Assembly (NCBI GenBank): GCA_949316235.1
Contig: OX438758.1
Coordinates: forward strand, 14,603,731 to 14,667,730
Source of the DNA: Oegoconia quadripuncta
Taxonomy: Eukaryota > Arthropoda > Insecta > Lepidoptera > Autostichidae
Length of the DNA stretch: 64,000 nt
Direction: 5' to 3'
Below, piece by piece: positions 10,641 through 57,768 of the stretch (position 1 is its first letter; each line of letters opens with the position of its first letter). The notes beneath the pieces are model-generated. The model saw only the letters and a list, made by a program, of their open reading frames with translations, searched no databases and was not told where the DNA came from. The position numbers and the translations under genes are program-made.

Positions 10641-10667
10641 ACCACATCATAGCTAGATTCTTGTCTT

Positions 10668-13930: not shown

Positions 13931-14227
13931 GGAATGCGTCCGATGTCGCAGAAGGCTGAAACAAATGCGATTAGATATAAAAATGTGAATTCATTACGTG
14001 AGTGAGAAATGTAACCAGACGTTTTGTTTCGAGGTATTGGGAAAAACTTTGTTATATCACATGATAATTAAAATGAAAAGATGTTTAATATGTTTAAAAA
14101 TAAACAACACAAGTTTTAATTTTTCAAATCACACTGAAGATGTATTTTTATAACATTTAGACTTATCTCACAAATAAAAATTTTGCAATTTACAAAACTG
14201 TATGATAATAAAATAACTCACATCCAT
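13931..14227 (-). pseudogene. Gene A fragment (unit 0)
   Basis: Exon 1 (14222-14227) and the first 25 bases of exon 2 (to 13955) remain around a 266-bp intron (13956-14221). The rest of gene A and all of gene B are missing. The codons present carry substitutions (GCGTCC for the usual GTATCC on the plus strand), consistent with an old, non-functional edge copy. Confidence 0.85.
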
Positions 14228-14291
14228 TATGGTGACTGATTCACAAAATGTTAAAGAATGGTAAATTTTTAAGTTGTTTGGCGGTTTATAT
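13931..14291 (-). repeat. Array unit 0, partial (right end only)
   Basis: This is the leftmost copy of the ~1.93 kb array unit. It retains the start of gene A exon 2, the intron, exon 1 and the TATA region, and is cut at 13931 inside exon 2. It has the shorter 266-bp intron and GAGGTATTGG variant that are otherwise found only in unit 10. Confidence 0.92.
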
Positions 14292-14306
14292 AAACCGCCA
14301 AACAAC
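14273..14306. repeat. 34-bp perfect palindrome at unit/DIRS junction
   Basis: The terminal segment of array unit 0 (GTTGTTTGGCGGTTTAT) is followed at once by its exact reverse complement, then by the DIRS inverted repeat at 14308. Other array units carry only the left arm and continue into the next unit. Confidence 0.95.
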
Positions 14307-14307
14307 C

Positions 14308-14467
14308 GTCGTTACATCCTCGACATTTAAGTTCACCAGGTAGTCCACTCTTCTATGTACTAGGCATCATGCACAATTTCAGAGCTGAAAATGCTAAAAA
14401 AAAAAAGTACAAGTACCCTCCTCCCGCGCCCCCACCCGGCCCCGACTCGTGCGCCGAAATGTCATTC
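14308..14467 (+). repeat. DIRS left inverted terminal repeat
   Basis: About 160 bp here match the reverse complement of 19566-19723 with few differences, including the A-run and the CCTCCTCCCGCGCCCCCACC segment. Confidence 0.9.
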
Positions 14468-14584
14468 GCTTTTTTTGTGCGGGCATCAAAGCATCGAAAT
14501 TTTTTTCCTTACCAAAATTTTAAGTGAATATCTGTTGTATCGTGCGATATTACCGCGTGTGATTGTGTGGAGGTTTTTTCCGGG

Positions 14585-16338
14585 ATGGGGAAACGGAAAC
14601 ATAAGAATTTCGACGAACATATTAAAAGGAAAATAAGGCGCCTCGAAAGGCGACTTAGGATGCGTCATAAATCTAGTGACGAAGGTTAGTGACGTGATTA
14701 TTCATACTTTGTATTAATTTACTGTTCTATTTATTCTTCCGACACACACGGAATCATCTCATATACTTATCTTGCGTAGTACATGAACTACAATAAGTAG
14801 TCATACTTGGTCACATCACCGGAATTACAGAAATTTTTTTTTTTTAATCTACCGCCCAATAACATTGGATTTACATCGACTGTTTCTTTAATATTTTTCT
14901 GGATACTTTGTCTATTTTGAATTATTACGCTATAGAAATATTTAACTTTACAATAGTATCTGAAGAATTTCAGCTCAGTTATGCTTTATTATAATGAGAA
15001 ATTTAGCTCGTTTGACTGTGAACGATGATGCAAATCGTACTATGACGAGATCATGGTCGCATATTATATATAACCAGTATAAATTATTACGCTATAGAAA
15101 TACTTAACTTTACAATAGTATCTGAAGAATTTCAGCTCAGTTATGCTATATTATAATGAGAAATTTAGCTCGTTTGACTATGAACGATGATGCAAATCGT
15201 ACTATGGCGAGATCATGGTCGCATATTATATAGAACCAGTATAAATTATTACGCTATAGAAATACTTAACTTTACAATAGTATCTGAAGAATTTCAGCTC
15301 AGTTATGCTTTATTATAATGAGAAATTTAGCTCGTTTGACTGTGAACGATGATGCAAATCGTACGATGACGAGATCATGGTCGCATATTATATATAACCA
15401 GTATAAATTATTACGCTATAGAAATACTTAATTTTACAATAGTATCTGAAGAATTTCAGCTCAGTTATGCTATATTATAATGAGAAATTTAGCTCATTGG
15501 ACTATGAACGATGATGCAAATCGTACTATGGCGAGATCATGGTCGCATATTATATAGAACCAGTATAAATTTATTTAACGTGGTACTATGACGAGATTAT
15601 AGTCAAACGTATTCTTACCAATGAATACTACGGCGCGACTGTAGTTGCATACTTTCCTATCTAGTACTGTGACGTGATTACAGTCAAAATGTCATGGCGT
15701 GATCATGACTTTGGTATCCTGTACTTACAGAATCAGGAAGTCCGAGGGCCTCTTGCTCAAGATATAGAAGTCCAGGTCCGGTACCCTTATCTATTAGCTC
15801 AGATAATGCGGGCTTAAGCCCTATCATGCGGTCAGCCATAACCGTGGTCGATTACGACATAAACAAGACGAGAGATGCCACAGGGGAACCACCCGACTTA
15901 CCAGCTGGCCAAGCTCGCGTAACCGATCTCCCGGTGACAGCAGACCAGTCTTCAACTGAAAGACCGGTAGCCGCCTCAGTCGAGCCATCAACTTCTACGG
16001 CTTTACCAAGAAATATTTTAGAGGCGTTAGGCGATTCGAAGGTTAAACAGGAACTCTTCGGATCCAAAATCCATGATGACGTCTCTAAACGCTGGGGTCG
16101 GATATTATCGGAAGGTCTGAATAAGGACCAAAGTAAAGCAATTACAGATAAATTGCTGATACCGGAGAATTTTCAGCTTGTGAAGGCGCCTAAATTGAAT
16201 CCTGAAATTTCGGCTGTTCTAACAGAATCCGCTAGGAACAGGGATAAGCGCTTAGAGAAAGCTCAGCAACATCTGGGGCTAGGTATAGCCGGCCTTACTA
16301 GTGTCACGTCGAAGCTTATGGCGATGGCGACAATATAG
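14585..16338 (+). pseudogene. DIRS gag, two exons
   Basis: Exon 1 (14585-14684) starts at an ATG and encodes a very basic helix (KRKHKNFDEHIKRKIRRLER), typical of DIRS gag starts. A donor AAG|GTTAGT at 14685 and an acceptor CTTACAG ending at 15730 define a 1046-bp intron; joining them keeps one frame into exon 2 (15731-16338). Exon 2 contains the conserved gag region from ILEALGDSKVKQELFG to LLIPENFQLVKAPKLNPEI. The frame stops at 16338, while gag-like sequence (IDKIELIKKLSEIVIRLRRK) continues in another frame, so a late frameshift is likely. The splice assignment is inferred from sequence only. Confidence 0.75.
14921..15568 (+). repeat. Four 162-bp tandem repeats inside the DIRS gag intron
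   Basis: The segment ATTATTACGCTATAGAAATA recurs at 14921, 15083, 15245 and 15407, exactly 162 bp apart, with few differences between copies. Each copy contains a near-palindromic CGAGATCATGGTCG-type motif. Related motifs (GACGTGATTACAGTCA and similar) continue to 15715. Confidence 0.95.
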
Positions 16339-18160
16339 ACAAAATCGAGCTTATTAAAAAGCTTTCCGAAATCGTTATCCGACTCCGTCGAAAGCAGCAG
16401 TTCCCAAATCGACGCCCAAAACCCAATAGAGGTGAGCAGTCACATAGGCCGATTAAAATATTTTATTGATAATTGGAGATCCATTACAAGTGATCCTGTT
16501 ATTTTACAGATCGTATCTGGTTATAAGATACCTTTTAATCGGCCAGTTACTCAAATAACAGAACCAGTTAATAATGAATTTTCACTTTCAGAGAAACATA
16601 ATTTGAATTTAGAGATCTCAAAGTTAACCCAAACTAAAGCCATTTTGCCATGTGCTGATAAACCGGTCAGCTCATATCTAAGATATTTCTCACATCAAAA
16701 AGTGACGGTGAACATAGATGCATACTTAATTTGAAAGCATTAAATAAGTGTGTCGAAAGACATTACTTTAAAATGGAGGACATTCGTACAGTCACGAAAT
16801 TAATGTCCCTGTCGTGTTTTATGGCAAATATCGATCTCAAAGATACATATTTTTTAATATCGGTGCATCCTTACTATCGGAAGTTTTTAAGATTTAAATT
16901 CAACGGCCAAACTTATGAATTTCAGTGCCTTCCGTTTGGTCTACGATCAGCCCCATATGTCTTAACCAAGTTGCTGAAGCCGGTTGCATCTTTCCTTAGG
17001 AGTAAAGGGTTACTCTTAGTTGTATATTTGGATGATATTGTGTTTGGGGTATTCGTATAGGGATTGCCAAAATCGTGTTTCTGAAACAGAAACGTATTAC
17101 ACTTTCTGGGGCTGGCAATTAATACCGAAAGGAGCCACTTGTTACCAAGTCAAATTTGTACGTTCTTAGGATTCGAACTGAATTCAGTTGACATGAATAT
17201 GGGCTTACCCTTAAACAAGCGTAATAAAAATTTTATCTCTTGTTAAAGACGTATCAAAAAAGAATATTTTGACGATTAGGGAGTTCACTCAATTCGTCGG
17301 TGTCCTCACCTCAGCTTGTCCAGCCATTGCCTACGGTTGGGTATACACAAAACGTTTTGAAAGTGAGAAATATCGAGCATTACCTACAACGATCTAATGA
17401 TGATTATGACAAGAAAATGGCCATTAGTAAAGCTTTACTATCTGATTTTACATGGTGAGAAGGACATATTATGTCTTCTAAGAATCCTTTGCGTCGCGGT
17501 CAAAAGGCTTTAGAAATTTTTTCAGACGCCTCCTTATCAGGGTGGGGCGTAATGTGTAACAGGAAGCGCGCCAGCGGATTTCGGGAATATTCCATATAAA
17601 TTTTTTAGAGCTTAAAGCGGCTCTTATGGGTCTAAAATGTTCTGCAAGCGAAATGCACGATTCAGAAATTTTACTTCGTATCGATAGCACTGTAGCCATT
17701 TCATATATTAACAGAATGGGTGACGTACAGTATAATCATTTAAATGATATTACACGCGAGATATAGTTATTTTGCGAAGAGCGTCGACTGTACATTTTCA
17801 CATCATATATTAGATCGAAAGACAACACCGAAGCTGACGGAGGAGTCGAGACGCACCAATATTGATGCGGAATGGGATCTCTCACAGACTGTCTTTAGAG
17901 ACATCGTAAGCAACTTTGGACAGCCTGAGATAGACCTCTTCGCATCTCGTTTGAACAACAAATGCTCTAAGTACCTACATAACGTGGAAACGAGACCCGT
18001 CCGCCTTCAATATTGACGTGTTTACACTGGATTGGAGTAATTATTACTTTTACGCCTTCCTACCATTCTCACTTATTCTCAAATGTCTGCGTAAAATTGT
18101 CGACGATGAAGCCACAGGCATCATGGTTGTGCCTTTCTGGCCAAGTCAACCATGGTAGCC
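16339..18160 (+). pseudogene. DIRS pol: reverse transcriptase, RNase H, MT-like segment
   Basis: The first piece has GRLKYFIDNWRSITSDPVIL, the usual DIRS pol start. A frame change near 16680 leads to FMANIDLKDTYFLISVHP, FQCLPFGLRSAPYV and VVYLDDIV (catalytic YLDD). RNase H follows in broken frames near 17505-17780 (EIFSDASLSGWGV and LLRIDSTVAISYINRMG). The segment FGQPEIDLFASRLNN (17914-17958) and the next frame to about 18150 match the conserved region after RNase H in DIRS elements, linked to a methyltransferase-like domain; its PPF motif is changed to LPF. At least five frame breaks make the gene non-functional. Confidence 0.8.
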
Positions 18161-18284
18161 ATTGCTCCATTCACTGGCGTGCAAAGACCCTGTGTATTTT
18201 CATCCCGACAATCAGTTACTGATGTCTCCTTTCAGAGAACCGCATCCCTTTTGGAGAACCCTTATCCTGGTGTCGTGCCAATTA

Positions 18285-19302
18285 TCAGGGAAGCGTATAG
18301 GCGACGATCACTCAAGCCAGATACAGTAGATATTATGGTGTCTTCCCTTTCAGTAAATTCCCTAAAACAATACAATGTGGCATTGAAAAAGTGGTGGCAA
18401 TTTTTCCATTGCAGAAAATATTAACTGTTATAACGCAACCGTTCTTCAAATTCTTGAATTTTCTAACAATTCAATATAATAAGGGAGCTAGCTACTCTAG
18501 CTTGAACACTTACCGTTCTGCCCTCCGTATAATATTTGGCAAATGGTTCAGTGAGAATGACCAAGTGATAAGGTTTATGAAAGGCGTCTTTAAGCAAAGA
18601 CCTGCTTTTCCGAGGTATCAATTTACGTGGGATCCTAAGATAGTTCTTGATTTTGTAGGAAATCTATATCCAAACGATAGTTTGTCTTTAGATAGAATTT
18701 GTAAAAAGACAGCGTGTCTGCTTGCATTATCTTCAGGACAACGGGTCCAGACCCTATCCCTTATTAAATTGTCTTGCATTACATTTAATCAAGACATTAT
18801 TGAAATAATAATCTTTTATTATTATTTCAATAATTAAATAAATTTGATTAAAACTTCGGCACCTGGTCGGCTAATGCCACGTCTTATTATTCCTTTCTTC
18901 CCGATCAGGGAAGAGATTTGTAATGCAAAGGCACTTACGTCATATATTGAGATTACGAAACAGTTCCGAATGAACTCTAATACTGACCGTTTATTCCTCA
19001 CGACAAAAAATCCGATACTTAACGCAAGTTCCTCAACCATCAGTCGATGGATCAAGGGGATAATGGAAGAAAGCGGCATAGATACTGACACCTTTTCTGC
19101 CCATAGCACTCGTCACGCTTCTACGTCGGCAGCCCACCGTAAAGACGTGTCTATCGAACTAATTAAGAGAACCGCAGGTTGGACGGGCACCTCCCTTGTT
19201 TTCGCAAAATTTTATAATCGGTCTCTCTTGATGAATGATGGAGAAAGTGCATTTGCAGAAGCAGTATTTGATTGTAATAATTATTATTATAATAATAATT
19301 AA
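18285..19302 (+). pseudogene. DIRS tyrosine recombinase, broken
   Basis: The SAM-like N-terminal part (IREAYRRRSLKPDTVDIMV) leads after a frame change to LLALSSGQRVQTLSL, holding the first catalytic arginine. The second part (18844-19302) has HSTRHASTSAA (the HxxR box) and AGWTGTSLVFAKFYNR, ending with the nucleophile tyrosine. All catalytic residues of a tyrosine recombinase are therefore present, but the frame is cut at 18837 by an inserted perfect hairpin (18796-18834). The enzyme would integrate a circular cDNA without target duplication, which fits the lack of one here. Confidence 0.85.
18796..18834 (+). repeat. Perfect 16-bp-stem hairpin inside recombinase gene
   Basis: Arms 18796-18811 and 18819-18834 are exact reverse complements around a 7-base loop. 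The hairpin introduces the stop that separates the two halves of the recombinase. Confidence 0.93.
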
Positions 19303-19384
19303 GATATGTAATTTGATAAAATAAAAGTTGATTGTCAAACGTATAACCAATGTTCTAATGTTATTTCGCAAACGCGCTAAACAT

Positions 19385-19504
19385 CTACCTGGTGAACTTA
19401 AATGTCGAGGATGTAACGACGAAGTATAATTAAAGGTTAAACAAACTTACCTAAGTGAAGTTTGACTATAATTATATGAGTCGTTACATCCGAAGGCATT
19501 TAAG
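19385..19504 (+). repeat. DIRS internal complementary region
   Basis: Bases 19385-19420 are the reverse complement of the left extremity (14308-14343), and 19431-19504 that of the right extremity (19698-19771), separated by 10 bases. This spells the junction of the two ends of the circular intermediate, as in canonical DIRS-1. Confidence 0.9.
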
Positions 19505-19565
19505 AACCCTCCCATAACCCATATCCCCCACATAAGTTTGCGAAATACCAGTAAACTCTAAAGAA

Positions 19566-19771
19566 ATGACGTTTCGGCGCACGAGTCGGGGCCGGGTGGG
19601 GGCGCGGGAGGAGGGTACTTGTACTTTTTTTTTTAGCATTTTCAGCTCTGAAATTGTGCTTGATGCCTAGTACATAGAAGAGTGGACTACCTGGTGAACT
19701 TAAATGCCTTCGGATGTAACGACTCATATAATTATGGTCAAACTTCACTTAGGTAAGTTTGTTTAACCTTT
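19566..19771 (+). repeat. DIRS right inverted terminal repeat
   Basis: This repeat matches the left inverted repeat in reverse complement to 19723 and then extends about 48 bases further to the unit boundary. The extension is confirmed as element sequence by its complement in the internal region. Confidence 0.88.
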
Positions 19772-20410
19772 AAAACTTTCGAGCAAGTTTGAACATGTTT
19801 AATATGCACCTGCCCTAACCCTTTTCTTTAGTGTGAACCATTAAGGTATGATTTATTACATGAGACTAAATTTTTTCACCCTCCAAAAAATACCAACGAT
19901 TGCGCGGTGTTTTGAGCAAACGGTTTTTTCATCACGAAACTTTGGTTAATTTATAACATGATTTTGACGTTGATGGCATCTACGTTCACATAAAGAAACC
20001 AATTTTATTACAATCTCTCGATTAATTACACGAGGCTACCCAAAAACGCGAACCGTTCTGTATCACCTTATGTCACGTTCGGGTATCCCACGGCAATAAA
20101 TTCTATATTTTTTCATAAAAATTCGCGTATCTTGACAATCTTCACACGACCTCATGCACCTGCGTATCACCTTGTGTCACGATCACAATAAATTCTATAT
20201 TTTTTTCATAAAGATTCCTCATGCACCTGCGTGCTTATCACATAAAAAACCTGTCCGTTGAATGCACAATGGAATACGGTGTTGTTTTTACAAAATAACT
20301 TAGCCTAACACAACAAGAGAACTAAAAGTATACACTAACTTAATCTAACAAAAATAACTTAAATTTCTAATTAAAAGCTAACTTAATATAAACACTCACT
20401 CACTCACTCA

Positions 20411-20737
20411 CTAATTCTCTGTACTATCGTCATCCTCTTCGATTGTATAAAATTTAGGGGGCTCCATGCAATTTAGATACTGCTCATCGAAGGGCTCGTA
20501 AGCATCCATCGTAATTCCCACATCTTCATCATCATCGTATCTCCCCCATTCACCTTCTTCTTCTTCTTCATCTTCGGTCATTGCCGGCGTCAGCGGATTG
20601 TAATTCACTGGCACCCAGTCCGGCAAAATTGGTGGACTATATCCATTAGTTGTAGAGCAGTAATCCATCAAAACAAAATAACTAGCACATTCTTCACAAG
20701 TACACTGGCAACAACATGTAGTACAACAGCTATACAT
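20411..20737 (-). CDS. Gene B (unit 1): Cys-rich head, acidic tail protein
   Basis: This 108-residue protein is of a family I do not recognise. Residues 1-17 hold eight cysteines (MYSCCTTCCCQCTCEEC), which could bind metal or form disulfides. Residues 54-81 are strongly acidic (TEDEEEEEGEWGRYDDDEDV), and the C-terminus is again acidic (EEDDDSTEN). There is no signal peptide or membrane segment. The ATG at 20737 follows a TATA box (minus strand of 20818-20826) by about 80 bases. The stop codon is embedded in GTGAGT repeats. It lies 167 bases downstream of gene A on the same strand. The function is unknown. Confidence 0.7.
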   Translation of the reverse strand: MYSCCTTCCCQCTCEECASYFVLMDYCSTTNGYSPPILPDWVPVNYNPLTPAMTEDEEEEEGEWGRYDDDEDVGITMDAYEPFDEQYLNCMEPPKFYTIEEDDDSTEN

Positions 20738-20904
20738 TATAATAATATATTATTGGATGGTGTTACGTTCGGCTCAGGCTGAATGAACAGTGAATATCGG
20801 TCGAAGGCGTCAGAAGGCTTTATATACGCACAGCTACAAAACCCCCAAAGGGCGGGGGGTTTTATCGAGTGATTTATGTTGTTATTTTAATTGACAATCA
20901 CATT

Positions 20905-21640
20905 TTACTCTGTTGATTCGAAGAAGTATTTTTTGCAATCATCGCTTTCTGAAATTTGTTTAGTTATATTGAATATAACATCTCGAATGTTTTGGTATGT
21001 TTTATCATTCTCGCATTGAGTGTAATATTTGACGCGTAAATCAACATTCTTCCAATGATCTTTGATGGATATATCCTTTAATTTCTTGACATCATAAATT
21101 TCAATTTTGATGAGATGGCTGGCGTTGTTATTTGCAGACATAGATATGTAAGAAGTTCCACCATTGCTCGATTGGCTAACGGAACTTGACAAAGATGGTT
21201 TCTTTTTTTTCTTTGGTTTTTCAAAAAAATGTTCAATGCTGTTGGATAGCTTTTGAGCCTTTGGTTTCCTTTTCGCCTGTATTTCTTGATTTTCATCATC
21301 GCTTATAGAAGGGTAGTAATAATTTTTCAGAGTATAATCGAATGTATCCGATGTCGCAGAAGGCTGAAACAAATGCGATTAGATATAAAAATGTGAATTC
21401 ATTAGATACGTGAGTGAGAAATGTAACCAGACGTTTTGTTTCGAGTTATTGGGAAAAACTTTGTTATATCACATGATAATTAAAATGAAAAGATGTTTAA
21501 TATGTTTAAAAATAAAACAACACAAGTTTTAATTTTTCAAATCACACTGAAGATGAATTTTTATAACATTTAGACTTATCTCACAAATAAAAATTTTGCA
21601 ATTTACAAAACTGTATGATAATAAAATAACTCACATCCAT
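20905..21640 (-). CDS. Gene A (unit 1), promoter lost
   Basis: Exon 1 is 21635-21640, the intron 21364-21634 and exon 2 20905-21363. The coding sequence is intact and encodes the same 154 residues as units 2-6. The R1-clade element begins 35 bases upstream of the ATG and has removed the TATA box, so this copy probably lacks its normal promoter. Confidence 0.7.
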
Positions 21641-21675
21641 TATGGTGACTGATTCACAAAATGGTAAATTTTTAA

Positions 21676-23253
21676 CACCAGATGCCGCATGATGCGGCCT
21701 GCCACCACTCTTTCCAGGAGCTTACCGGCCTCATCGAGCAGAACGATGGGCCGGTAGGCTGACGGGGACTCCTCAGGGCGGCCGTCCTTCCTTAAAAGAA
21801 TGAGCCGCCCCTCCTTCCAGCAGGAAGGGAATTGACGCCGCTCCAGGCACGCGCTGAAGAGGTCCCGAAACCGGCTCTCCAGGGGGTCCAAGGCCAGAAC
21901 CAAGGCCCGCCCTGGTATGCCATCAGGACCCGGTGCCGTTTTCCTGCCGCGGAGCCGCAACAACGCAGCTCCCAATTCGCCCTCTGTCACCGGGGGGACT
22001 TCCTCGAGAGGGTCCACCCGGATCGGCGGAAGCGCCACATCGCTATCCCCGTGCGGGAATAGAGCCGCAACAACCTCAACCAGCCGTTGTGGCTGGAGGG
22101 TCTCCACTACTGGGGGTCCCTGGCCGCGGATTTTACCGCGAGCCGCAAGGTACGGGCGCCCCCAGGGGTCCCGATCCAGACCCTCCAGCATCTCTTCTCT
22201 CGCGCTGGTCTTGGCCCGGCAGATGGCCACCTGCAGCGTCTTCTTGGCCTCCTTGTAGGCCAGGCGAAGGCGCTCCTCCTCCTCCTCGTTCCGCACACGG
22301 CGGCGCCGTTGACGAACGTACGCCCGCCGGGCGGCGAAACAGCCGCGACGAAGATCTGCGATCTCTTCAGACCACCAATAGACTGCCCTTTTAGGTGGTC
22401 GGAGCCGGACGCGCGGCATGGCCGCATCGCAGATCCTCGTCATTGCCTCTCTAAAGTAGAGGGCCTCGTCCTCCGTGGTCGCCATAGGAGCAGGGAGCGA
22501 ACCCCAAGCCTCCACGATGGCCGCCTCCTCGAGGAGCTCGGTATCGAGCTTTGTGAGGGCCCAGCGGGGAAACGCCGGTGCCCTCGAGACGACGGGACTA
22601 TTGGGTGCAGAGGGGGAGACGCTGAATCGGATATAGAGGTGGTCCGACAGCGTCTCCACCTCCTCAACGACCCTCCAGTCGGAGATCGACCTCGCGACAG
22701 CAGGGGATGCAAACGACAGGTCTACTATCGACCCCCCCTGCTGCCTTACACAGGTGTTGGTGGTACCCCGGTGCAGGAGACCGAGGCCGACCGCCAACGC
22801 CCACTCCTCCACCAAGTCACCACGGACGTCCGTTGCAGGGGAACCCCAAGCCACACTCTTGGCGTTGAAGTCCCCCGCAACTATTATCGGTCGCGGCGCC
22901 GCCCTCCTGACGGCCGCCTCCAGCTCTCCGAGGAACACCTCGAACTCGTAGAGTGGTTTATTCGGGGAGAAGTACACCCCGAAAACGGTGTACTCTCCCC
23001 AGTTAGCCCCCACGAAACCGTTGCCCCTCTCCTTAACAGAGAGAGGCGAAGATCCTGCGCCACAGGCGCAAATGATTGCGACGGAGCCCTGTACGTCACC
23101 CACCCAATTGGACCGAGCGGGGACGTAGTATGGCTCCGCCACCACCGCGACGTCGCTTTGCCACTCCGCCATGGTCTGGAGCAGAAGGTCCTGAGCCCCG
23201 GCGGAGTGGTTTAAATTCCCCTGGAGGAAGAGATGTGGTCGACGATTATCCAT
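21676..23253 (-). pseudogene. R1-clade ORF2: endonuclease and truncated reverse transcriptase
   Basis: The likely start is the ATG at 23253, which overlaps the ORF1 stop (ATGGATAA), an arrangement that suggests coupled translation. The endonuclease shows LFLQGNLNHSAGAQ, VAVVAEPY, GDFNAKSVAWGS and SDHLYIRF. The reverse transcriptase begins with TAPGPDGIPG and YRPIVLLDEAGKLLE, then stops at the truncation before the palm motifs. The last codons of the open frame (to 21640) are array sequence. The region is otherwise free of internal stops. Confidence 0.88.
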
Positions 23254-25492: not shown

Positions 25493-26211
25493 GTTCTGCG
25501 TAGAGTCGCAACGATCGCTTCGTAGAGTAGAGTATTGGCCTGCTGGACACCTGCGTTACCGGGTCCAGACAGTTACCAGGGTGCACCGCGGGGAGGTTCT
25601 CTACTAACGCACCCCGTTTAATATGCACCTGCCCTAACCCTTTTCTTTAGTGTGAACCATTAAGGTATGATTTATTACATGAGACTAAATTTTTTCACCC
25701 TCCAAAAAATACCAACGATTGCGCGGTGTTTTGAGCAAACGGTTTTTTCATCACGAAACTTTGGTTAATTTATAACATGATTTTGACGTTGATGGCATCT
25801 ACGTTCACATAAAGAAACCAATTTTATTACAATCTCTCGATTAATTACACGAGGCTACCCAAAAACGCGAACCGTTCTGTATCACCTTATGTCACGTTCG
25901 GGTATCCCACGGCAATAAATTCTATATTTTTTGATAAAAATTCGCGTATCTTGACAATCTTCACACGACCTCATGCACCTGCGTATCACCTTGTGTCACG
26001 ATCACAATAAATTCTATATTTTTTTCATAAAGATTCCTCATGCACCTGCGTGCTTATCACATAAAAAACCTGTCCGTTGAATGCACAATGGAATACGGTG
26101 TTGTTTTTACAAAATAACTTAGCCTAACACAACAAGAGAACTAAAAGTATACACTAACTTAATCTAACAAAAATAACTTAAATTTCTAATTAAAAGCTAA
26201 CTTAATATAAA

Positions 26212-26231
26212 CACTCACTCACTCACTCACT
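26212..26231 (-). repeat. GTGAG tract at gene B stop codon
   Basis: On the minus strand the TAG stop of gene B runs directly into four to five GTGA repeats, each of which reads as a 5' splice donor (GTGAGT). Units 8-10 have two fewer copies. Confidence 0.85.
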
Positions 26232-26556: not shown

Positions 26557-26636
26557 TATAATAATATATTATTGGATGGTGTTACGTTCGGCTCAGGCTG
26601 AATGAACAGTGAATATCGGTCGAAGGCGTCAGAAGG

Positions 26637-26645
26637 CTTTATATA
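26637..26645 (-). promoter_or_regulatory. Gene B TATA box (unit 2)
   Basis: TATATAAAG on the minus strand lies about 30 bases upstream of TATTCACTG, a reasonable start site. The element is preserved in every unit carrying this region. Confidence 0.65.
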
Positions 26646-26656
26646 CGCACAGCTAC

Positions 26657-26682: not shown

Positions 26683-26723
26683 ATCGAGTGATTTATGTTG
26701 TTATTTTAATTGACAATCACATT

Positions 26724-32013: not shown

Positions 32014-32340
32014 CTAATTCTCTGTACTATCGTCATCCTCTTCGATTGTATAAAATTTAGGGGGCTCCATGCAATTTAGATACTGCTCATCGAAGGGCTC
32101 GTAAGCATCCATCGTAATTCCCACATCTTCATCATCATCGTATCTCCCCCATTCACATTCTTCTTCTTCTTCCTCTTCGGTCATTGCCGGCGTCAGCGGA
32201 TTGTAATTCACTGGCACCCAGTCCGGCAAAATTGGTGGACTATATCCATTAGTTGTAGAGCAGTAATCCATAAAAACAAAATAACTAGCACATTCTTCAC
32301 AAGTACACTGGCAACAACATGTAGTACAACAGCTATACAT
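32014..32340 (-). CDS. Gene B (unit 5)
   Basis: An intact 108-residue copy with three differences from unit 2: leucine to phenylalanine at residue 23 (FVFMDYC), aspartate to glutamate at the start of the acidic run, and the glycine-to-cysteine variant. Confidence 0.7.
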   Translation of the reverse strand: MYSCCTTCCCQCTCEECASYFVFMDYCSTTNGYSPPILPDWVPVNYNPLTPAMTEEEEEEECEWGRYDDDEDVGITMDAYEPFDEQYLNCMEPPKFYTIEEDDDSTEN

Positions 32341-32507
32341 TATAATAATATATTATTGGATGGTGTTACGTTCGGCTCAGGCTGAATGAACAGTGAATAT
32401 CGGTCGAAGGCGTCAGAAGGCTTTATATACGCACAGCTACAAAACCCCCAAAGGGCGGGGGGTTTTATCGAGTGATTTATGTTGTTATTTTAATTGACAA
32501 TCACATT

Positions 32508-33243
32508 TTACTCTGTTGATTCGAAGAAGTATTTTTTGCAATCATCGCTTTCTGAAATTTGTTTAGTTATATTGAATATAACATCTCGAATGTTTTGGTA
32601 TGTTTTATCATTCTCGCATTGAGTGTAATATTTGACGCGTAAATCAACATTCTTCCAATGATCTTTGATGGATATATCCTTTAATTTCTTGACATCATAA
32701 ATTTCAATTTTGATGAGATGGCTGGCGTTGTTATTTGCAGACATAGATATGTAAGAAGTTCCACCATTGCTCGATTGGCTAACGGAACTTGACAAAGATG
32801 GTTTCTTTTTTTTCTTTGGTTTTTCAAAAAAATGTTCAATGCTGTTGGATAGCTTTTGAGCCTTTGGTTTCCTTTTCGCCTGTATTTCTTGATTTTCATC
32901 ATCGCTTATAGAAGGGTAGTAATAATTTTTCAGAGTATAATCGAATGTATCCGATGTCGCAGAAGGCTGAAACAAATGCGATTAGATATAAAAATGTGAA
33001 TTCATTAGATACGTGAGTGAGAAATGTAACCAGACGTTTTGTTTCGAGTTATTGGGAAAAACTTTGTTATATCACATGATAATTAAAATGAAAAGATTTT
33101 TAATATGTTTAAAAATAAAACAACACAAGTTTTAATTTTTCAAATCACACTGAAGATGAATTTTTATAACATTTAGACTTATCTCACAAATAAAAATTTT
33201 GCAATTTACAAAACTGTATGATAATAAAATAACTCACATCCAT
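32508..33243 (-). CDS. Gene A (unit 5)
   Basis: Exon 1 is 33238-33243, the intron 32967-33237 and exon 2 32508-32966. The protein is identical to unit 2. Confidence 0.72.
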
Positions 33244-47028: not shown

Positions 47029-49719
47029 GAAGAATCCAGGTATTCTACCAATCAAGGAAGGGACGGCCCTCGTCAGTCACGATAAGTGGCTAGTATTTAA
47101 GATTCTAGATTTAAGTATAATATATGATGAGTTACAGGTTAATGTGAATGGCTATCACGATTTAAATAGGTTAGTCTACGTTCAGTTCCATAAAAATACT
47201 ACAGTCGAGCTTTCCGACATCATTCACCAAGTTGAGCATACCAAGAACATGACCATGGAACGCTATAAGCAATTAGCCCCAGACCCTAGAGTAAAGAGAG
47301 GTCTTCTTAACCCCTTAGGCTCGCTTATCAAAATCATTTCGGGAAATTTAGATAATGAGGACGCTATTAGATATGATAAATTAATCAGTAATATTAAAAG
47401 CAAAATAAAGTACAGAAAAAGATGACCTTAGTTACCGAAATGGTGGGAATTCTCCTCAATACTACAATTATTGTTAAAAACAATCTCATGCAATTAAATG
47501 ACGCTTTTAAACAAATAAATAAAAGTCTCAACAAAATTAATCAAAATCAAATGATAAATCGTCTTAGTACAATATACAGGGCGTCCCAAAGTTATGGGAC
47601 ATGAAGGGGAAGTACCTTAAATATCGTAGATAGTGAATTTTGCTCAAAGAAGACTTTATGTTATTTTTAAAAGTTAGTAATTCTGCATTCATAGATTTTC
47701 TAAAAATTACTTGCTTCGGCTGGGAATCGAACCGACTTAAATGTGAAAAAAAAAACACCCTACTTTTATGATGCCAATCGAAAGAATAGCTAAAAAATAA
47801 TAACTCTGCCTAAGTAACATAGTATTTTAAAAGAAAGGAACAACGGAATAAGATAAGAAACCATTCCGCGGCGGAGCAAGAAAACTTAATTTTCCAACAA
47901 GATGGAGCTCCGGCTCATAATAGTCGGAGAGCAGCAGATTTTCTAAATGAATGTTTTCCTACATGGATTGGTACAAATGGACCGATTAGATGGCCGGCCA
48001 GATCCCCGGACCTCACACCATTAGATTTCTTCTTTTGGGGATACGTGAAAGATATGCTATACAAAAAGCGATACGAGAACGTAGGCGAGTTGCAAACAGA
48101 ATTGTGCCATATCACATCGAGTGTTCACCATAAAATGATTAGAAAATCAACAGGCAGCGGGCTCATTAAAAGATTGGCGATTTGCGTAAGACAAGAGGGA
48201 TCACATTTTGAGCATTTAATTAATTAATTTACAAAAAAATACCTACTTAATTGACTACGGCAGTTTCATGTATGTTTTTTATTTGATTAAAATGATTAAT
48301 TTCACGTTGTTCCTTTCTTTTAAAATACTATGTTACTTAGGCAGAGTTATTATTTTTTAGCTATTCTTTCGATTGGCATCATAAAAGTAGGGTGTCTTTT
48401 TTTTCACATTTAAGTCGGTTCGATTCCCAGCCGAAACAAGTAATTTTTAGAAAATCTATGAATGCAGAATTACTAACTTTTAAAAATAACATAAAGTCTT
48501 CTTTGAGCAAAATTCACTATCTACGATATTTAAGGTACTTCCCCTTCATGTCCCATAACTTTGGGACGCCCTGTATAGTCTATTTTTACATAACTTTCAG
48601 TCCATTTGCATAAGGTTGGATGAGATTGAGACTGCTGTTGCATTTAGTAGACTAAGAATCTTACATCAATCTATAATTAATACAGATGAGCTGTCTGAAT
48701 TACTGAAATCCATTGAAACAACTGAAAAACTTGTATATCCCTCTAAACCCGAGAATTTAGTGAAAATAGAGCAAACCATAGAGCTTAAGTCTTATTATAG
48801 GAGAAATGAAATAATATTTGTATTAGAAATACCACTAGTTAAAATAGAATCGTACTTTTACTATAAAATTGTTCCCTTACCTATTTCCAAAATTTCTTCA
48901 GACCAAACCCTCATCATCCTACCTAAATACTCTTACCTCATAGTGAAAGGTTTGAAGGCTCACCCGTTGACCAAGCCATGCCGGGAGATCGAAGAGTCCT
49001 TGTTTCTCTGCCAGGAGGAAAATACCATGCTGCCAGTCGAGGACAGGTGTATTACAGATTTAATGCAATACTCCACGAACATCTCTTGCACTCAAATCCC
49101 AGTACATTATGAAGGAGTGAAAATTGAACTAATCCAGGAAAACAGATGGGTTTTATATTCAAAGAAAGGCATAGAGCTCACGCGAATGTGTGATAATGAA
49201 GTGATTAGGTATACAATAGAAGGCACTTACCTACTAACCATTGATGATAACTGTGAATTAAAAATAGCGGAATATGTTTTGCGAAGACACCGATTCGAGG
49301 GGAAACAGATGATTTACCCCAAACTGCCAATAGTGAATTTCCCGAGTAAATTATCCGTAAACACCGTATTGGATCAAAAACCAGTGAAGCTGGATGGAAT
49401 TGACCTCACTAACTTGAAGCTATTGACCTATGCTGTGAAGAAAATTCAAAGTGATAGTGAAAAGGACGTGAAAAGTGTAGTGGACATAGAAAGTATTAGT
49501 GTTGGAACAATTATCTTGTACCTTATTTTTATTATAAGTTTGTTATCATTTGTTTTACTTAGATTTAATTTATGTAACATTCGACGTCATCTGCGCCAAA
49601 AAATGCACTCAGATGACATCGAACTTAAGGAGGGAGGAGTCATGCAGACTCTACCGCCCACGCGCTCTGCGATAGCGCCCGAGCAGACGTCCGAACCGCG
49701 GACTCAGCGCATTTTATAA
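46979..49719 (+). pseudogene. Gypsy env, interrupted
   Basis: The N-terminal part (46979-47425) overlaps the end of pol and contains a furin-type site RVKR followed by a glycine/leucine-rich fusion-peptide-like stretch. A frame change near 47405 leads to 47422-47576. The gene is then interrupted by the 997-bp inverted-repeat element at 47577-48573 and resumes to 49719. The C-terminal part has cysteines, a membrane anchor (TIILYLIFIISLLSFVLL) and a tail read through the start of the 3' LTR. Insect errantivirus envelopes descend from a baculovirus-type fusion protein (family knowledge). This copy cannot make envelope. Confidence 0.85.
47577..48573 (+). mobile_element. Tc1/mariner-type element with 269-bp inverted repeats
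   Basis: Nearly perfect inverted repeats of about 269 bp (47577-47845 and 48305-48573) start CAGGGCGTCCCAAAG and are flanked by TA duplications (47575-47576 and 48574-48575). The middle encodes only the C-terminal catalytic part of a transposase (47885-48227): FQQDGAPAHNS with the second aspartate and WPARSPDLTPLDFFFWGYVK with the third acidic residue. It is therefore a shortened, non-autonomous copy. Confidence 0.92.
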
Positions 49720-49852
49720 GATAAGGGCTTCCTGCGTGGAGCCTGGGATTAGTTTTAAGACACAATAATAAAATCAGTCTCTATCGAGAGGTTGACAGCT
49801 AACCTCGTCTCTTCTTTTTAAAAAGCCCTCTCTCCGAAGTCGCGACAAATCT
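49638..49852 (+). repeat. Gypsy 3' LTR
   Basis: 215 bp. It includes the last codons and stop of env, and is preceded by the polypurine tract at 49627-49637. Confidence 0.93.
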
Positions 49853-50884: not shown

Positions 50885-51426
50885 TTTCAATTTTGATGAG
50901 ATGGCTGGCGTTGTTATTTGCAGACATAGATATGTAAGAAGTTCCACCATTGCTCGATTGGCTAACGGAACTTGACAAAGATGGTTTCTTTTTTTTCTTT
51001 GGTTTTTCAAAAAAATGTTCAATGCTGTTGGATAGCTTTTGAGCCTTTGGTTTCCTTTTCGCCTGTATTTCTTGATTTTCATCATCGCTTATAGAAGGGT
51101 AGTAATAATTTTTCAGAGTATAATCGAATGTATCCGATGTCGCAGAAGGCTGAAACAAATGCGATTAGATATAAAAATGTGAATTCATTAGATACGTGAG
51201 TGAGAAATGTAACCAGACGTTTTGTTTCGAGTTATTGGGAAAAACTTTGTTATATCACATGATAATTAAAATGAAAAGATGTTTAATATGTTTAAAAATA
51301 AAACAACACAAGTTTTAATTTTTCAAATCACACTGAAGATGAATTTTTATAACATTTAGACTTATCTCACAAATAAAAATTTTGCAATTTACAAAACTGT
51401 ATGATAATAAAATAACTCACATCCAT
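50885..51426 (-). pseudogene. Gene A (unit 7), N-terminal part
   Basis: Exon 1 (51421-51426), the 271-bp intron (51150-51420) and the first part of exon 2 (50885-51149) are intact with their TATA box. Translation would run about ten codons into the DDE transposon and stop. Confidence 0.9.
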
Positions 51427-51492
51427 TATGGTGACTGATTCACAAAATGTTAAAGAATGGTAAATTTTTAAGTTGTTTGGCGGTTTATATAG
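50885..51492 (-). repeat. Array unit 7, right part
   Basis: The remainder of the split unit. It resumes with TTTCAATTTTG, directly continuous with CATCATAAA at 36567, and ends at the usual boundary. Confidence 0.95.
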
Positions 51493-52123
51493 AAAACTTT
51501 CGAGCAAGTTTGAACATGTTTAATATGCACCTGCCCTAACCCTTTTCTTTAGTGTGAACCATTAAGGTATGATTTATTACATGAGACTAAATTTTTTCAC
51601 CCTCCAAAAAATACCAACGATTGCGCGGTGTTTTGAGCAAACGGTTTTTTCATCACGAAACTTTGGTTAATTTATAACATGATTTTGACGTTGATGGCAT
51701 CTACGTTCACATAAAGAAACCAATTTTATTACAATCTCTCGATTAATTACACGAGGCTACCCAAAAACGCGAACCGTTCTGTATCACCTTATGTCACGTT
51801 CGGGTATCCCACGGCAATAAATTCTATATTTTTTCATAAAAATTCGCGTATCTTGACAATCTTCACACGACCTCATGCACCTGCGTATCACCTTGTGTCA
51901 CGATCACAATAAATTCTATATTTTTTTCATAAAGATTCCTCATGCACCTGCGTGCTTATCACATAAAAAACCTGTCCGTTGAATGCACAATGGAATACGG
52001 TGTTGTTTTTACAAAATAACTTAGCCTAACACAACAAGAGAACTAAAAGTATACACTAACTTAATCTAACAAAAATAACTTAAATTTCTAATTAAAAGCT
52101 AACTTAATATAAACACTCACTCA

Positions 52124-52447
52124 CTAATTCTCTGTACTATCGTCATCCTCTTCGATTGTATAAAATTTAGGGGGCTCCATGCAATTTAGATACTGCTCAT
52201 CGGAGGGCTCGTAAGCATCCATCGTAATTCCCACATCTTCATCATCATCGTATCTCCCCCATTCACCTTCTTCTTCTTCATCTTCCGTCATTGCCGGCGT
52301 CAGCGGATTGTAATTCACTGGCACCCAGTCCGGCAAAATTGGTGGACTATATCCATTAGTTGTAGGGCAGTAATCCATCAAAACAAAATAACTAGCACAT
52401 TCTTCACAAGTACACTGGCAACAACATGTAGTACAACAGCTATACAT
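52124..52447 (-). CDS. Gene B (unit 8)
   Basis: An intact 107-residue subtype: serine to proline in MDYCPTTNG, one glutamate fewer (EEEEGEWGR), and phenylalanine to serine in EPSDEQ. Confidence 0.7.
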   Translation of the reverse strand: MYSCCTTCCCQCTCEECASYFVLMDYCPTTNGYSPPILPDWVPVNYNPLTPAMTEDEEEEGEWGRYDDDEDVGITMDAYEPSDEQYLNCMEPPKFYTIEEDDDSTEN

Positions 52448-52612
52448 TATAATAATTATTATTGGATGGTGTTACGTTCGGCTCAGGCTGAATGAACAGT
52501 GAATATCGGTCGAAGGCGTCAGAAAGCTTTATATACGCACAGCTACAAAACCCCCAAAGGGCGGGGGGTTTATCGAGTGATTTATGTTGTTATTTTAATT
52601 GACAATCACATT

Positions 52613-53348
52613 TTACTCTGTTGATTCGAAGAAGTATTTTTTGCAATCATCGCTTTCTGAAATTTGTTTAGTTATATTGAATATAACATCTCGAATGTTT
52701 TGGTATGTTTTATCATTCTCGGATTGAGTGTAATATTTGACGCGTAAATCAACATTCTTCCAATGATCTTTGATGGATATATCCTTTAATTTCTTGACAT
52801 CATAAATTTCAATTTTGATGAGATGGCTGGCGTTGTTATTTGCAGACATAGATATGTAAGAAGTTCCACCATTGCTCGATTGGCTAACGGAACTTGACAA
52901 AGATGGTTTCTTTTTTTTCTTTGGTTTTTCAAAAAAATGTTCAATGCTGTTGGATAGCTTTTGAGCCTTTGGTTTCCTTTTCGCCTGTATTTCTTGCTTT
53001 TCATCATCGCTTATGGAAGGGTAGTAATAATTTTTCAGAGTATAATCGAATGTATCCGATGTCGCAGAAGGCTGAAACAAATGCGATTAGATATAAAAAT
53101 GTGAATTCATTAGATACGTGAGTGAGAAATGTAACCAGACGTTTTGTTTCGAGTTATTGGGAAAAACTTTGTTATATCACATGATAATTAAAATGAAAAG
53201 ATGTTTAATATGTTTAAAAATAAAACAACACAAGTTTTAATTTTTCAAATCACACTGAAGATGAATTTTTATAACATTTAGACTTATCTCACAAATAAAA
53301 ATTTTGCAATTTACAAAACTGTATGATAATAAAATAACTCACATCCAT
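52613..53348 (-). CDS. Gene A (unit 8)
   Basis: Exon 1 is 53343-53348, the intron 53072-53342 and exon 2 52613-53071. Two changes from unit 2: asparagine to lysine (DDEKQEIQ) and cysteine to serine (YYTQSENDK). Confidence 0.72.
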
Positions 53349-54045
53349 TATGGTGACTGATTCACAAAATGTTAAAGAATGGTAAATTTTTAAGTTGTTT
53401 GGCGGTTTATATAGAAAACTTTCGAGCAAGTTTGAACATGTTTAATATGCACCTGCCCTAACCCTTTTCTTTAGTGTGAACCATTAAGGTATGATTTATT
53501 ACATGAGACTAAATTTTTTCACCCTCCAAAAAATACCAACGATTGCGCGGTGTTTTGAGCAAACGGTTTTTTCATCACGAAACTTTGGTTAATTTATAAC
53601 ATGATTTTGACGTTGATGGCATCTACGTTCACATAAAGAAACCAATTTTATTACAATCTCTCGATTAATTACACGAGGCTACCCAAAAACGCGAACCGTT
53701 CTGTATCACCTTATGTCACGTTCGGGTATCCCACGGCAATAAATTCTATATTTTTTCATAAAAATTCGCGTATCTTGACAATCTTCACACGACCTCATGC
53801 ACCTGCGTATCACCTTGTGTCACGATCACAATAAATTCTATATTTTTTTCATAAAGATTCCTCATGCACCTGCGTGCTTATCACATAAAAAACCTGTCCG
53901 TTGAATGCACAATGGAATACGGTGTTGTTTTTACAAAATAACTTAGCCTAACACAACAAGAGAACTAAAAGTATACACTAACTTAATCTAACAAAAATAA
54001 CTTAAATTTCTAATTAAAAGCTAACTTAATATAAACACTCACTCA

Positions 54046-54369
54046 CTAATTCTCTGTACTATCGTCATCCTCTTCGATTGTATAAAATTTAGGGGGCTCC
54101 ATGCAATTTAGATACTGCTCATCGGAGGGCTCGTAAGCATCCATCGTAATTCCCACATCTTCATCATCATCGTATCTCCCCCATTCACCTTCTTCTTCTT
54201 CATCTTCCGTCATTGCCGGCGTCAGCGGATTGTAATTCACTGGCACCCAGTCCGGCAAAATTGGTGGACTATATCCATTAGTTGTAGGGCAGTAATCCAT
54301 CAAAACAAAATAACTAGCACATTCTTCACAAGTACACTGGCAACAACATGTAGTACAACAGCTATACAT
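54046..54369 (-). CDS. Gene B (unit 9)
   Basis: Identical in protein to unit 8 (107 residues). Confidence 0.7.
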   Translation of the reverse strand: MYSCCTTCCCQCTCEECASYFVLMDYCPTTNGYSPPILPDWVPVNYNPLTPAMTEDEEEEGEWGRYDDDEDVGITMDAYEPSDEQYLNCMEPPKFYTIEEDDDSTEN

Positions 54370-54534
54370 TATAATAATTATTATTGGATGGTGTTACGTT
54401 CGGCTCAGGCTGAATGAACAGTGAATATCGGTCGAAGGCGTCAGAAAGCTTTATATACGCACAGCTACAAAACCCCCAAAGGGCGGGGGGTTTATCGAGT
54501 GATTTATGTTGTTATTTTAATTGACAATCACATT

Positions 54535-55270
54535 TTACTCTGTTGATTCGAAGAAGTATTTTTTGCAATCATCGCTTTCTGAAATTTGTTTAGTTATATT
54601 GAATATAACATCTCGAATGTTTTGGTATGTTTTATCATTCTCGGATTGAGTGTAATATTTGACGCGTAAATCAACATTCTTCCAATGATCTTTGATGGAT
54701 ATATCCTTTAATTTCTTGACATCATAAATTTCAATTTTGATGAGATGGCTGGCGTTGTTATTTGCAGACATAGATATGTAAGAAGTTCCACCATTGCTCG
54801 ATTGGCTAACGGAACTTGACAAAGATGGTTTCTTTTTTTTCTTTGGTTTTTCAAAAAAATGTTCAATGCTGTTGGATAGCTTTTGAGCCTTTGGTTTCCT
54901 TTTCGCCTGTATTTCTTGCTTTTCATCATCGCTTATGGAAGGGTAGTAATAATTTTTCAGAGTATAATCGAATGTATCCGATGTCGCAGAAGGCTGAAAC
55001 AAATGCGATTAGATATAAAAATGTGAATTCATTAGATACGTGAGTGAGAAATGTAACCAGACGTTTTGTTTCGAGTTATTGGGAAAAACTTTGTTATATC
55101 ACATGATAATTAAAATGAAAAGATGTTTAATATGTTTAAAAATAAAACAACACAAGTTTTAATTTTTCAAATCACACTGAAGATGAATTTTTATAACATT
55201 TAGACTTATCTCACAAATAAAAATTTTGCAATTTACAAAACTGTATGATAATAAAATAACTCACATCCAT
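54535..55270 (-). CDS. Gene A (unit 9)
   Basis: Exon 1 is 55265-55270, the intron 54994-55264 and exon 2 54535-54993. The protein is identical to unit 8. Confidence 0.72.
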
Positions 55271-55967
55271 TATGGTGACTGATTCACAAAATGTTAAAGA
55301 ATGGTAAATTTTTAAGTTGTTTGGCGGTTTATATAGAAAACTTTCGAGCAAGTTTGAACATGTTTAATATGCACCTGCCCTAACCCTTTTCTTTAGTGTG
55401 AACCATTAAGGTATGATTTATTACATGAGACTAAATTTTTTCACCCTCCAAAAAATACCAACGATTGCGCGGTGTTTTGAGCAAACGGTTTTTTCATCAC
55501 GAAACTTTGGTTAATTTATAACATGATTTTGACGTTGATGGCATCTACGTTCACATAAAGAAACCAATTTTATTACAATCTCTCGATTAATTACACGAGG
55601 CTACCCAAAAACGCGAACCGTTCTGTATCACCTTATGTCACGTTCGGGTATCCCACGGCAATAAATTCTATATTTTTTCATAAAAATTCGCGTATCTTGA
55701 CAATCTTCACACGACCTCATGCACCTGCGTATCACCTTGTGTCACGATCACAATAAATTCTATATTTTTTTCATAAAGATTCCTCATGCACCTGCGTGCT
55801 TATCACATAAAAAACCTGTCCGTTGAATGCACAATGGAATACGGTGTTGTTTTTACAAAATAACTTAGCCTAACACAACAAGAGAACTAAAAGTATACAC
55901 TAACTTAATCTAACAAAAATAACTTAAATTTCTAATTAAAAGCTAACTTAATATAAACACTCACTCA

Positions 55968-56291
55968 CTAATTCTCTGTACTATCGTCATCCTCTTCGAT
56001 TGTATAAAATTTAGGGGGCTCCATGCAATTTAGATACTGCTCATCGGAGGGCTCGTAAGCATCCATCGTAATTCCCACATCTTCATCATCATCGTATCTC
56101 CCCCATTCACCTTCTTCTTCTTCATCTTCCGTCATTGCCGGCGTCAGCGGATTGTAATTCACTGGCACCCAGTCCGGCAAAATTGGTGGACTATATCCAT
56201 TAGTTGTAGGGCAGTAATCCATCAAAACAAAATAACTAGCACATTCTTCACAAGTACACTGGCAACAACATGTAGTACAACAGCTATACAT
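55968..56291 (-). CDS. Gene B (unit 10)
   Basis: Identical in protein to units 8 and 9 (107 residues). Confidence 0.7.
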   Translation of the reverse strand: MYSCCTTCCCQCTCEECASYFVLMDYCPTTNGYSPPILPDWVPVNYNPLTPAMTEDEEEEGEWGRYDDDEDVGITMDAYEPSDEQYLNCMEPPKFYTIEEDDDSTEN

Positions 56292-56456
56292 TATAATAAT
56301 TATTATTGGATGGTGTTACGTTCGGCTCAGGCTGAATGAACAGTGAATATCGGTCGAAGGCGTCAGAAAGCTTTATATACGCACAGCTACAAAACCCCCA
56401 AAGGGCGGGGGGTTTATCGAGTGATTTATGTTGTTATTTTAATTGACAATCACATT

Positions 56457-57187
56457 TTACTCTGTTGATTCGAAGAAGTATTTTTTGCAATCATCGCTTT
56501 CTGAAATTTGTTTAGTTATATTGAATATAACATCTCGAATGTTTTGGTATGTTTTATCATTCTCGGATTGAGTGTAATATTTGACGCGTAAATCAACATT
56601 CTTCCAATGATCTTTGATGGATATATCCTTTAATTTCTTGACATCATAAATTTCAATTTTGATGAGATGGCTGGCGTTGTTATTTGCAGACATAGATATG
56701 TAAGAAGTTCCACCATTGCTCGATTGGCTAACGGAACTTGACAAAGATGGTTTCTTTTTTTTCTTTGGTTTTTCAAAAAAATGTTCAATGCTGTTGGATA
56801 GCTTTTGAGCCTTTGGTTTCCTTTTCGCCTGTATTTCTTGATTTTCATCATCGCTTATGGAAGGGTAGTAATAATTTTTCAGAGTATAATCGAATGTATC
56901 CGATGTCGCAGAAGGCTGAAACAAATGCGATTAGATATAAAAATGTGAATTCATTACGTGAGTGAGAAATGTAACCAGACGTTTTGTTTCGAGGTATTGG
57001 GAAAAACTTTGTTATATCACATGATAATTAAAATGAAAAGATGTTTAATATGTTTAAAAATAAACAACACAAGTTTTAATTTTTCAAATCACACTGAAGA
57101 TGAATTTTTATAACATTTAGACTTATCTCACAAATAAAAATTTTGCAATTTACAAAACTGTATGATAATAAAATAACTCACATCCAT
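56457..57187 (-). CDS. Gene A (unit 10)
   Basis: Exon 1 is 57182-57187, the intron 56916-57181 (266 bp) and exon 2 56457-56915. The protein has the serine variant (YYTQSENDK) but keeps the asparagine (DDENQ). The splice sites are unchanged. Confidence 0.72.
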
Positions 57188-57253
57188 TATGGTGACTGAT
57201 TCACAAAATGTTAAAGAATGGTAAATTTTTAAGTTGTTTGGCGGTTTATATAG

Positions 57254-57768
57254 AAAACTTTCGAGCAAGTTTGAACATGTTTAATATGCACCTGCCCTAA
57301 CCCTTTTCTTTAGTGTGAACCATTAAGGTATGATTTATTACATGAGATTAAATTTTTTCACCCTCCAAAAAATACCAACGATTGCGCGGTGTTTTGAGCA
57401 AACGGTTTTTTCATCACGAAACTTTGGTTAATTTATAACATGATTTTGACGTTGATGGCATCTACGTTCACATAAAGAAACCAATTTTATTATAATCTCT
57501 CGATTTATTACACGAGGCTACCCAAAACGCGAACCGTTCTGTATCACCTTATGTCACGTTCGGGTATCCCACGGCAATAAATTCTATATTTTTTGATAAA
57601 AATTCGCGTATCTTGACAATCTTCACACGACCTCATGCACCTGCGTATCACCTTGTGTCACGATCACAATAAATTCTATATTTTTTTCATAAAGATTCCT
57701 CATGCACCTGCGTGCTTATCACATAAAAAACCTGTCCGTTGAATGCACAATGGAATACGGTGTTGTTT
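57254..57768 (-). repeat. Array unit 11, partial (left end only)
   Basis: The non-coding 3' flank of a last unit, cut at 57768 before gene B. It is the most diverged copy (for example CGATTTATTA and CCCAAAACGCG), consistent with an array edge. Confidence 0.94.

Follow-up and report, generated by a model that had tools for sequence, protein, structure and literature searches.

A tandem array of a two-gene unit beside a Polinton/adintovirus-like remnant in the lepidopteran Oegoconia quadripuncta

What has been amplified, and from where did it come, at a locus that carries the same two small genes in one head-to-tail copy after another? This question is raised by a stretch of 64,000 nucleotides of contig OX438758.1 of Oegoconia quadripuncta (Lepidoptera, Autostichidae; assembly GCA_949316235.1, positions 14,603,731 to 14,667,730 of the forward strand), referred to below as the window, in which a unit of about 1.93 kb holding two genes, here termed gene A and gene B, forms a tandem array. 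We propose that the unit represents a pair of viral early-type genes which was recently amplified beside a Polinton/adintovirus-like element, its most likely origin, and we give this reading a probability of approximately 0.42. Since the gene A product is predicted to contain an NS2-like fold and a virus-like remnant adjoins the array, the latter may stem from captured viral machinery, a piece of which was amplified.

The array and its two genes

Self-comparison of the window, together with a search using the unit at 31375-33309, placed the array (insertions included) at 13932..57768 on the minus strand, where twelve head-to-tail copies of one two-gene unit, complete, interrupted or partial, could be distinguished, complete units being 1917-1935 base pairs (bp) in length. 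The array, all units of which lie on the minus strand, begins with part of unit 1 (13932-14292), followed by unit 2 (19772-21668), unit 3 (25616-27515), unit 4 (27516-29449), unit 5 (29450-31374), the 1935 bp reference unit 6 (31375-33309), unit 7 (33310-35244), unit 8, whose two halves (35245-36567 and 50885-51492) flank a 14.3 kb insertion, unit 9 (51493-53414), unit 10 (53415-55336), unit 11 (55337-57253) and part of unit 12 (57254-57768). Identity among the seven whole units free of interruption is 98.14-100% when gaps are counted, and 54 of the 1935 columns vary in an alignment of thirteen unit pieces. Ordered kilobase copies at such identity are not a chance pattern.

Read on the minus strand, the unit consists of TATATAAA, gene A exon 1, an intron, exon 2, a spacer, gene B and a 3' region. 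In the reference unit, exon 1 is the hexamer ATGGAT (33238..33243), approximately 70 bases downstream of the gene A TATA box, which is TATATAAA and lies within the end of the neighbouring unit as numbered. The intron (GTGAGT...TTTCAG, 32967..33237) is 271 bp long, with a range of 266-271 bp across the array and the lower value in two copies, and exon 2 with its stop codon occupies 32508..32966. The spliced protein of 154 amino acid (aa) residues comprises an acidic N-terminal part, a motif resembling a PIP box and a putative NS2-like domain. The spacer (32341..32507, 167 bp) holds a 9-bp hairpin (fold z-score -2.1, equalled in 9 of 200 shuffled sequences) as well as the gene B TATA box, which is retained in units 9-11 with one base altered just past the box. 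Gene B (32014..32340) encodes a protein of 108 aa (107-109 aa among the copies) with a start rich in Cys, an acidic stretch and, near its end at residue 88, the sequence LNCME, an LxCxE motif present in all ten copies. The 3' region contains AATAAA, and direct repeats of 16-21 bases, spaced 67-104 bases apart, were observed in it at 31663-31835.

The spliced coding sequence of gene A is open in all nine whole copies, a further two being incomplete (the 13932 copy ends within exon 2 and the 50885 copy is cut by the insertion), and the gene B frame is open in each of the ten copies that hold it. Gene A of unit 2 is without a TATA box because an element lacking long terminal repeats (non-LTR) sits just upstream of its ATG. 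Divergence per region, expressed as columns with substitutions only, per base of the thirteen-piece alignment, amounts to 0.011 for gene A exon 2 and 0.021 for gene B among coding parts, and to 0.011 for the intron, 0.006 for the spacer and 0.011 for the 3' part among non-coding ones, the 66 bases on the 5' side of gene A reaching 0.030; coding and non-coding parts of the unit are substituted about equally. Identical intron deletions occur in unit 11 (at 55337) and in the 13932 fragment, and a 10-bp deletion 5' of gene A recurs in unit 3 and unit 5; such sharing across distant units fits unequal exchange or conversion along the array. The original prediction, made from the letters of the window, is thereby borne out as regards the ~1.93 kb unit in twelve copies or parts, its intact frames, the comparable similarity of coding and non-coding parts, and a recent amplification or homogenisation of two minus-strand genes; its claim that each gene possesses its own TATA box does not hold for gene A of unit 2.

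Tandem copies amid a transposon-rich stretch are also what would be expected of a multicopy, possibly W-linked, locus serving small RNA production or sex-chromosome conflict, the proteins of which matter little, and a W-linked locus that is present in many copies and gives rise to silencing RNAs is reported from Plutella (PMC9674220). We consider this explanation quite improbable: a source of PIWI-interacting RNAs would not need open frames, yet every whole copy of gene A and every copy of gene B is open. With Stellate and similar multicopy sex-chromosome arrays, the parallel put forward in the original prediction, the array shares short coding units in tandem, but neither protein has a CK2-beta domain (Pfam at E<=5), which speaks against both that parallel and the small-RNA explanation.

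The gene A family and its C-terminal domain

A search with the gene A sequence alone yielded 16 relatives at E<=10 (weakest 2.7e-10), and a profile search based on 17 sequences yielded 72 at E<=1, the weakest of which, the doubtful P0072 (E 0.02), is a protein of 254 aa with an SHLIKIE core in its C-terminal part and a different N-terminal part. The 14 relatives that bear a species name are all lepidopteran and belong to ten genera, i.e. Choristoneura, Cydia, Eumeta, Tuta, Plutella, Spodoptera, Chilo, Colias, Dendrolimus and Operophtera (the lepidopteran placing of three of the species was confirmed in the taxonomy). Their records are named uncharacterised, hypothetical or unnamed, with 'Beta-xylanase, partial' as the one exception, and the closest relative (P0001) is 63% identical. 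Neither protein had been recognised in the original prediction and no known function is on record for either; the description of the locus as apparently undescribed holds, so far as searched, for the unit and gene B, whereas gene A is a member of this ten-genus family.

Many of the protein sequences derived from DNA continue across the splice acceptor, with FQ ahead of exon 2, and the Choristoneura and Cydia records begin with MD, matching the predicted splice. Automatic sorting of the 72 relatives by splice landmark returned 35 of the FQ type, 8 with an M[DE] start, 17 others and 12 without a landmark, a sorting that is imperfect in that some few of the 35 assignments are uncertain and P0001, of FQ type by eye, was placed among the 17. 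The gene A splice site thus looks old, judged from these sequences. Two or more family records exist in five of the ten named genera (for Cydia, the multiple count derives from one entry that lists two locus names and seven contigs), and two Spodoptera copies of gene A, 97% identical, lie on different contigs. Gene A of Colias (P0051) is 85-86% identical to that of Spodoptera (P0043 and P0048), against a cross-genus median of 42.2% (63 pairs among 12 named proteins) and a maximum of 61.9% for any other pair, and in a tree of 63 rows, from which ten short or odd rows were left out, Colias falls within a six-row group with Spodoptera. The closeness between a butterfly and a moth is a candidate for horizontal transfer and, together with the dispersed copies, would fit mobile cargo.

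The same family may be read differently, namely with gene A as an old host gene, a domesticated parvovirus-type NS2, that was amplified along with gene B as its new neighbour and stands next to a Polinton by chance. Its spread over ten genera, its possession of an intron and a promoter, the agreement of many relatives with the splice site and the presence of gene A on chromosome-scale contigs in several species are in keeping with this, and the accessible parts of the literature indicate that co-opted densovirus genes occur in aphids. A gene A kept by the host may interfere with incoming DNA viruses, and such an antiviral role is the main rival to our proposal. We regard domestication as possible but less probable than a viral pair of element origin, as mobile cargo better accounts for the multiple, dispersed records of five genera and for the closeness of Colias to Spodoptera and as the order of gene A, PolB and pX, described below, recurs in Dendrolimus.

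The model of gene A was built from an alignment of the protein of the window with 64 relatives; the other eight of the 72, short or odd, were left out. The predicted local distance difference test (pLDDT) score is at least 90 at 83 of 156 residues, nearly all of them C-terminal, and its per-block mean is approximately 86-96 from residue 61 onwards; the overall mean of 77.7 and the predicted template modelling (TM) score of 0.54 are due to the disordered N-terminal part. When this model was searched against a viral structure library, 22 matches were obtained at E<=0.001, of which 20 carry parvovirus or densovirus names and 12 are called NS2, the remaining two being an unnamed protein and one from Musca hytrosavirus. 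The top match, with a Foldseek E value of 2.2e-7 at a probability of 1.00 (TMq 0.54, TMt 0.65), is to F8S8Q7, a fragment of NS2 from Helicoverpa armigera densovirus, and identity in the fold alignments at that threshold is 11-20%. The model therefore makes it very probable that the C-terminal domain of gene A adopts an NS2-like fold. The hytrosavirus, whose protein B2YG54 matches at E 3.8e-4, is a large DNA virus of insects, so the fold may extend beyond parvoviruses. A library of solved structures gave no significant match to the model, no named NS2 occurred among the relatives from the profile search (which requires shared 5-residue words), and Pfam searches returned no parvovirus family, either for 20 long frames taken from the window and the relatives at E<=0.001 (long frames only) or for ten frames at E<=0.1.

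Densovirus NS2 and gene A are alike in the predicted fold of the C-terminal domain and unlike in that gene A is spliced and chromosomal, has no NS1 or VP found beside it, and bears a PIP-like N-terminal part. Densovirus NS2 is presented, in those parts of the literature that were available, as a nuclear protein without a settled molecular role, and in the accessible text of one study the NS2 of HaDV2 was nuclear as a fusion to green fluorescent protein (PMC5296992).

The disordered part of gene A holds a stretch of the form NSIDxFFExPKKKK, and an IxxFF or LxxFF-like motif with a following basic patch, which the search pattern required, is found in 66 of 73 proteins (the 72 relatives and that of the window). 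In an alignment of 65 rows F51 is invariant, with F50 conserved at 94%, K57 at 92% and I47 at 80%. This IxxFF-plus-lysine motif resembles the PCNA-binding PIP box, Qxx[ILM]xx[FY][FY], minus its Gln, and Q-less PIP boxes exist. In RNASEH2B, the FF pair matters for location with PCNA, according to the available part of the source (PMC11731006). On these sequence grounds we see an even chance that gene A docks on PCNA.

The adjoining element and the origin of the unit

A decayed Polinton/adintovirus-like element fills the first 13.1 kb of the window on the same strand as the array, which lies 0.5-0.8 kb upstream of it, two further short frames being located between the remnant and the array start at 13932. 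On the minus strand the remnant contains frames which we take to be pX-like (54-368) and packaging-ATPase-like (437-1084), neither of which (54..1084) has a Pfam match above the cut-off, PolB-like frames at 6382..9093, including a DNA_pol_B_2 match at 7438-7911 (E 3.2e-7), and a zinc-finger-like frame at 12735..13097 that we read as the start of PolB. Terminal repeats of the remnant were not located. The remnant also holds, at 10113-10646 and 10661-11614, a PIF1-type helicase frame (E 3.9e-57) and long tandem repeats of 12 and 14 bp.

A link between gene A and such an element is provided by P0063 of Dendrolimus kikuchii, a single gene model in which gene A is followed by a PolB-like piece and pX. 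Its middle is 36% identical to 12735-12845 of the window over 39 aa (E 4e-5 pairwise, 0.001 by tblastn) and its pX is 64% identical to that of the window over 103 aa, so that gene A, the PolB start and pX stand in the same order and on one strand in both. Based on this arrangement, origin of the unit from the adjoining element is, in our estimation, evenly balanced. Adintoviruses are reported to carry 'oncoid' genes (PMC11071296, PMC10812802), and in bidnaviruses, according to the first of these papers, a PolB of adintovirus type is combined with NS1 and capsid genes of parvoviruses; hence gene exchange between parvoviruses and adintovirus-type elements has precedent; NS2 has no occurrence in the main text of PMC11071296.

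If the unit is indeed such a viral gene pair, the gene A product would be nuclear, combining a disordered acidic N-terminal part, the PIP-like motif with its lysines and the NS2-fold domain, and would dock on PCNA so as to act at replication sites. Gene B, a Cys-rich acidic protein, would in turn dock on an Rb-family protein through LxCxE, a function that we suggest tentatively. Together, the two would favour DNA synthesis for replication of the element, and tandem copies would raise gene dosage. A broader form of this proposal, in which lepidopteran Polinton/adintovirus-like elements carry a cassette of an NS2-domain, PCNA-docking gene A and an Rb-docking gene B that was expanded once as a tandem 'gene accordion', is in our judgement rather unlikely.

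A number of results weigh against the proposed origin and mechanism. The Polinton link is seen in two places only, one of them an automatic gene model of unknown span, its PolB-like match covers just 39 aa, Polintons are common, and no viral contig carrying gene A was found when looked for. The NS2 match compares one prediction with another, with root-mean-square deviations of 11-23 and query-length TM-scores of 0.32-0.54, and full-length Helicoverpa armigera densovirus NS2 (F8S8R3) reaches an E value of only 0.054. Gln at position 1 of the PIP box occurs in none of the 66 motif-bearing proteins, and no PCNA-bound relative was found. LxCxE arises by chance in 5.2% of shuffles of the whole protein and in 3.2% of those made in two blocks, a looser flanked pattern in 7.1%; since shuffling yields the motif in 3-7% of cases it is weak on its own, and the sequence search with gene B found no relative, hence none showing its conservation. 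Finally, changes between copies, leaving aside indels and a stop change in unit 8, number 2 non-synonymous and 1 synonymous in the nine whole copies of gene A and 6 and 1, respectively, in the ten copies of gene B; no trace of purifying selection is thus visible in the array, which is too young to tell.

An overall count of 8 non-synonymous to 2 synonymous changes, as in sequence without constraint, and the equal similarity of coding and non-coding parts would also agree with an inert young concatemer of a small DNA or element fragment, functionless and with frames intact owing to youth. We deem this unlikely, given that both genes were intact in the unit that founded the array, complete with promoters and splice sites, and that the gene A family is conserved at the protein level. 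As regards the integrated concatemer of a small circular DNA considered in the original prediction, viral-type DNA gains support from the predicted NS2 fold of gene A and the Polinton-like remnant beside the array, a support that does not extend to an integrated circle as such.

Other elements are inserted in the array. Within the insertion that splits unit 8 lies an errantivirus-like LTR element (41364-49852), the 215-bp ends of which are identical; its pol frame (43171-47025) is open, and a further frame (48559-49716) has an envelope match, to Baculo_F. A DIRS-like element at 14293-19771 has a reverse transcriptase at 16662-17057, inverted ends at 14308-14466 and 19565-19723 and, presumably, a recombinase. 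The non-LTR element that took the gene A TATA box of unit 2 (21669-25615) has an endonuclease frame, and its other long frame contains 24-bp tandem repeats.

Known systems and wider meaning

Gene B shares an LxCxE motif with adintovirus 'oncoids' and the early proteins of small DNA tumour viruses and differs from them in having no found relative and in being amplified in tandem. Endogenous densovirus genes are variously described, in the portions of the literature available, as VP1, NS or modified NS1, and structural and non-structural types both occur in aphids. Close parallels, as described in the accessible parts of the sources, are Apns-1 and Apns-2 of the pea aphid, densovirus-derived genes which act in wing plasticity; like gene A they represent a densovirus-type gene resident in an insect genome, but they are modified NS1 with Walker motifs, whereas the present case concerns an NS2-type domain, Lepidoptera and a tandem pair. 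No report of a lepidopteran NS2-type family or of such an array was found in the partly accessible literature, most subscription journals lying outside its coverage.

Should the Polinton link be true, the locus would point to parvoviruses and Polinton-like elements having exchanged accessory genes and would represent an amplified, captured pair of early genes in an animal genome. Were the cassette to prove general among lepidopteran elements, parvoviruses would be tied to Polintons via accessory genes, beyond those for replication and capsid, and a role for the NS2 domain would be suggested. If, instead, the host keeps these genes, co-option of densovirus-type genes would extend outside aphids and to a gene other than that of the aphid case. 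The family of gene A, which spans ten lepidopteran genera and carries a near-invariant IxxFF-lysine motif, offers natural variants with which the role of an NS2-type domain may be tested.

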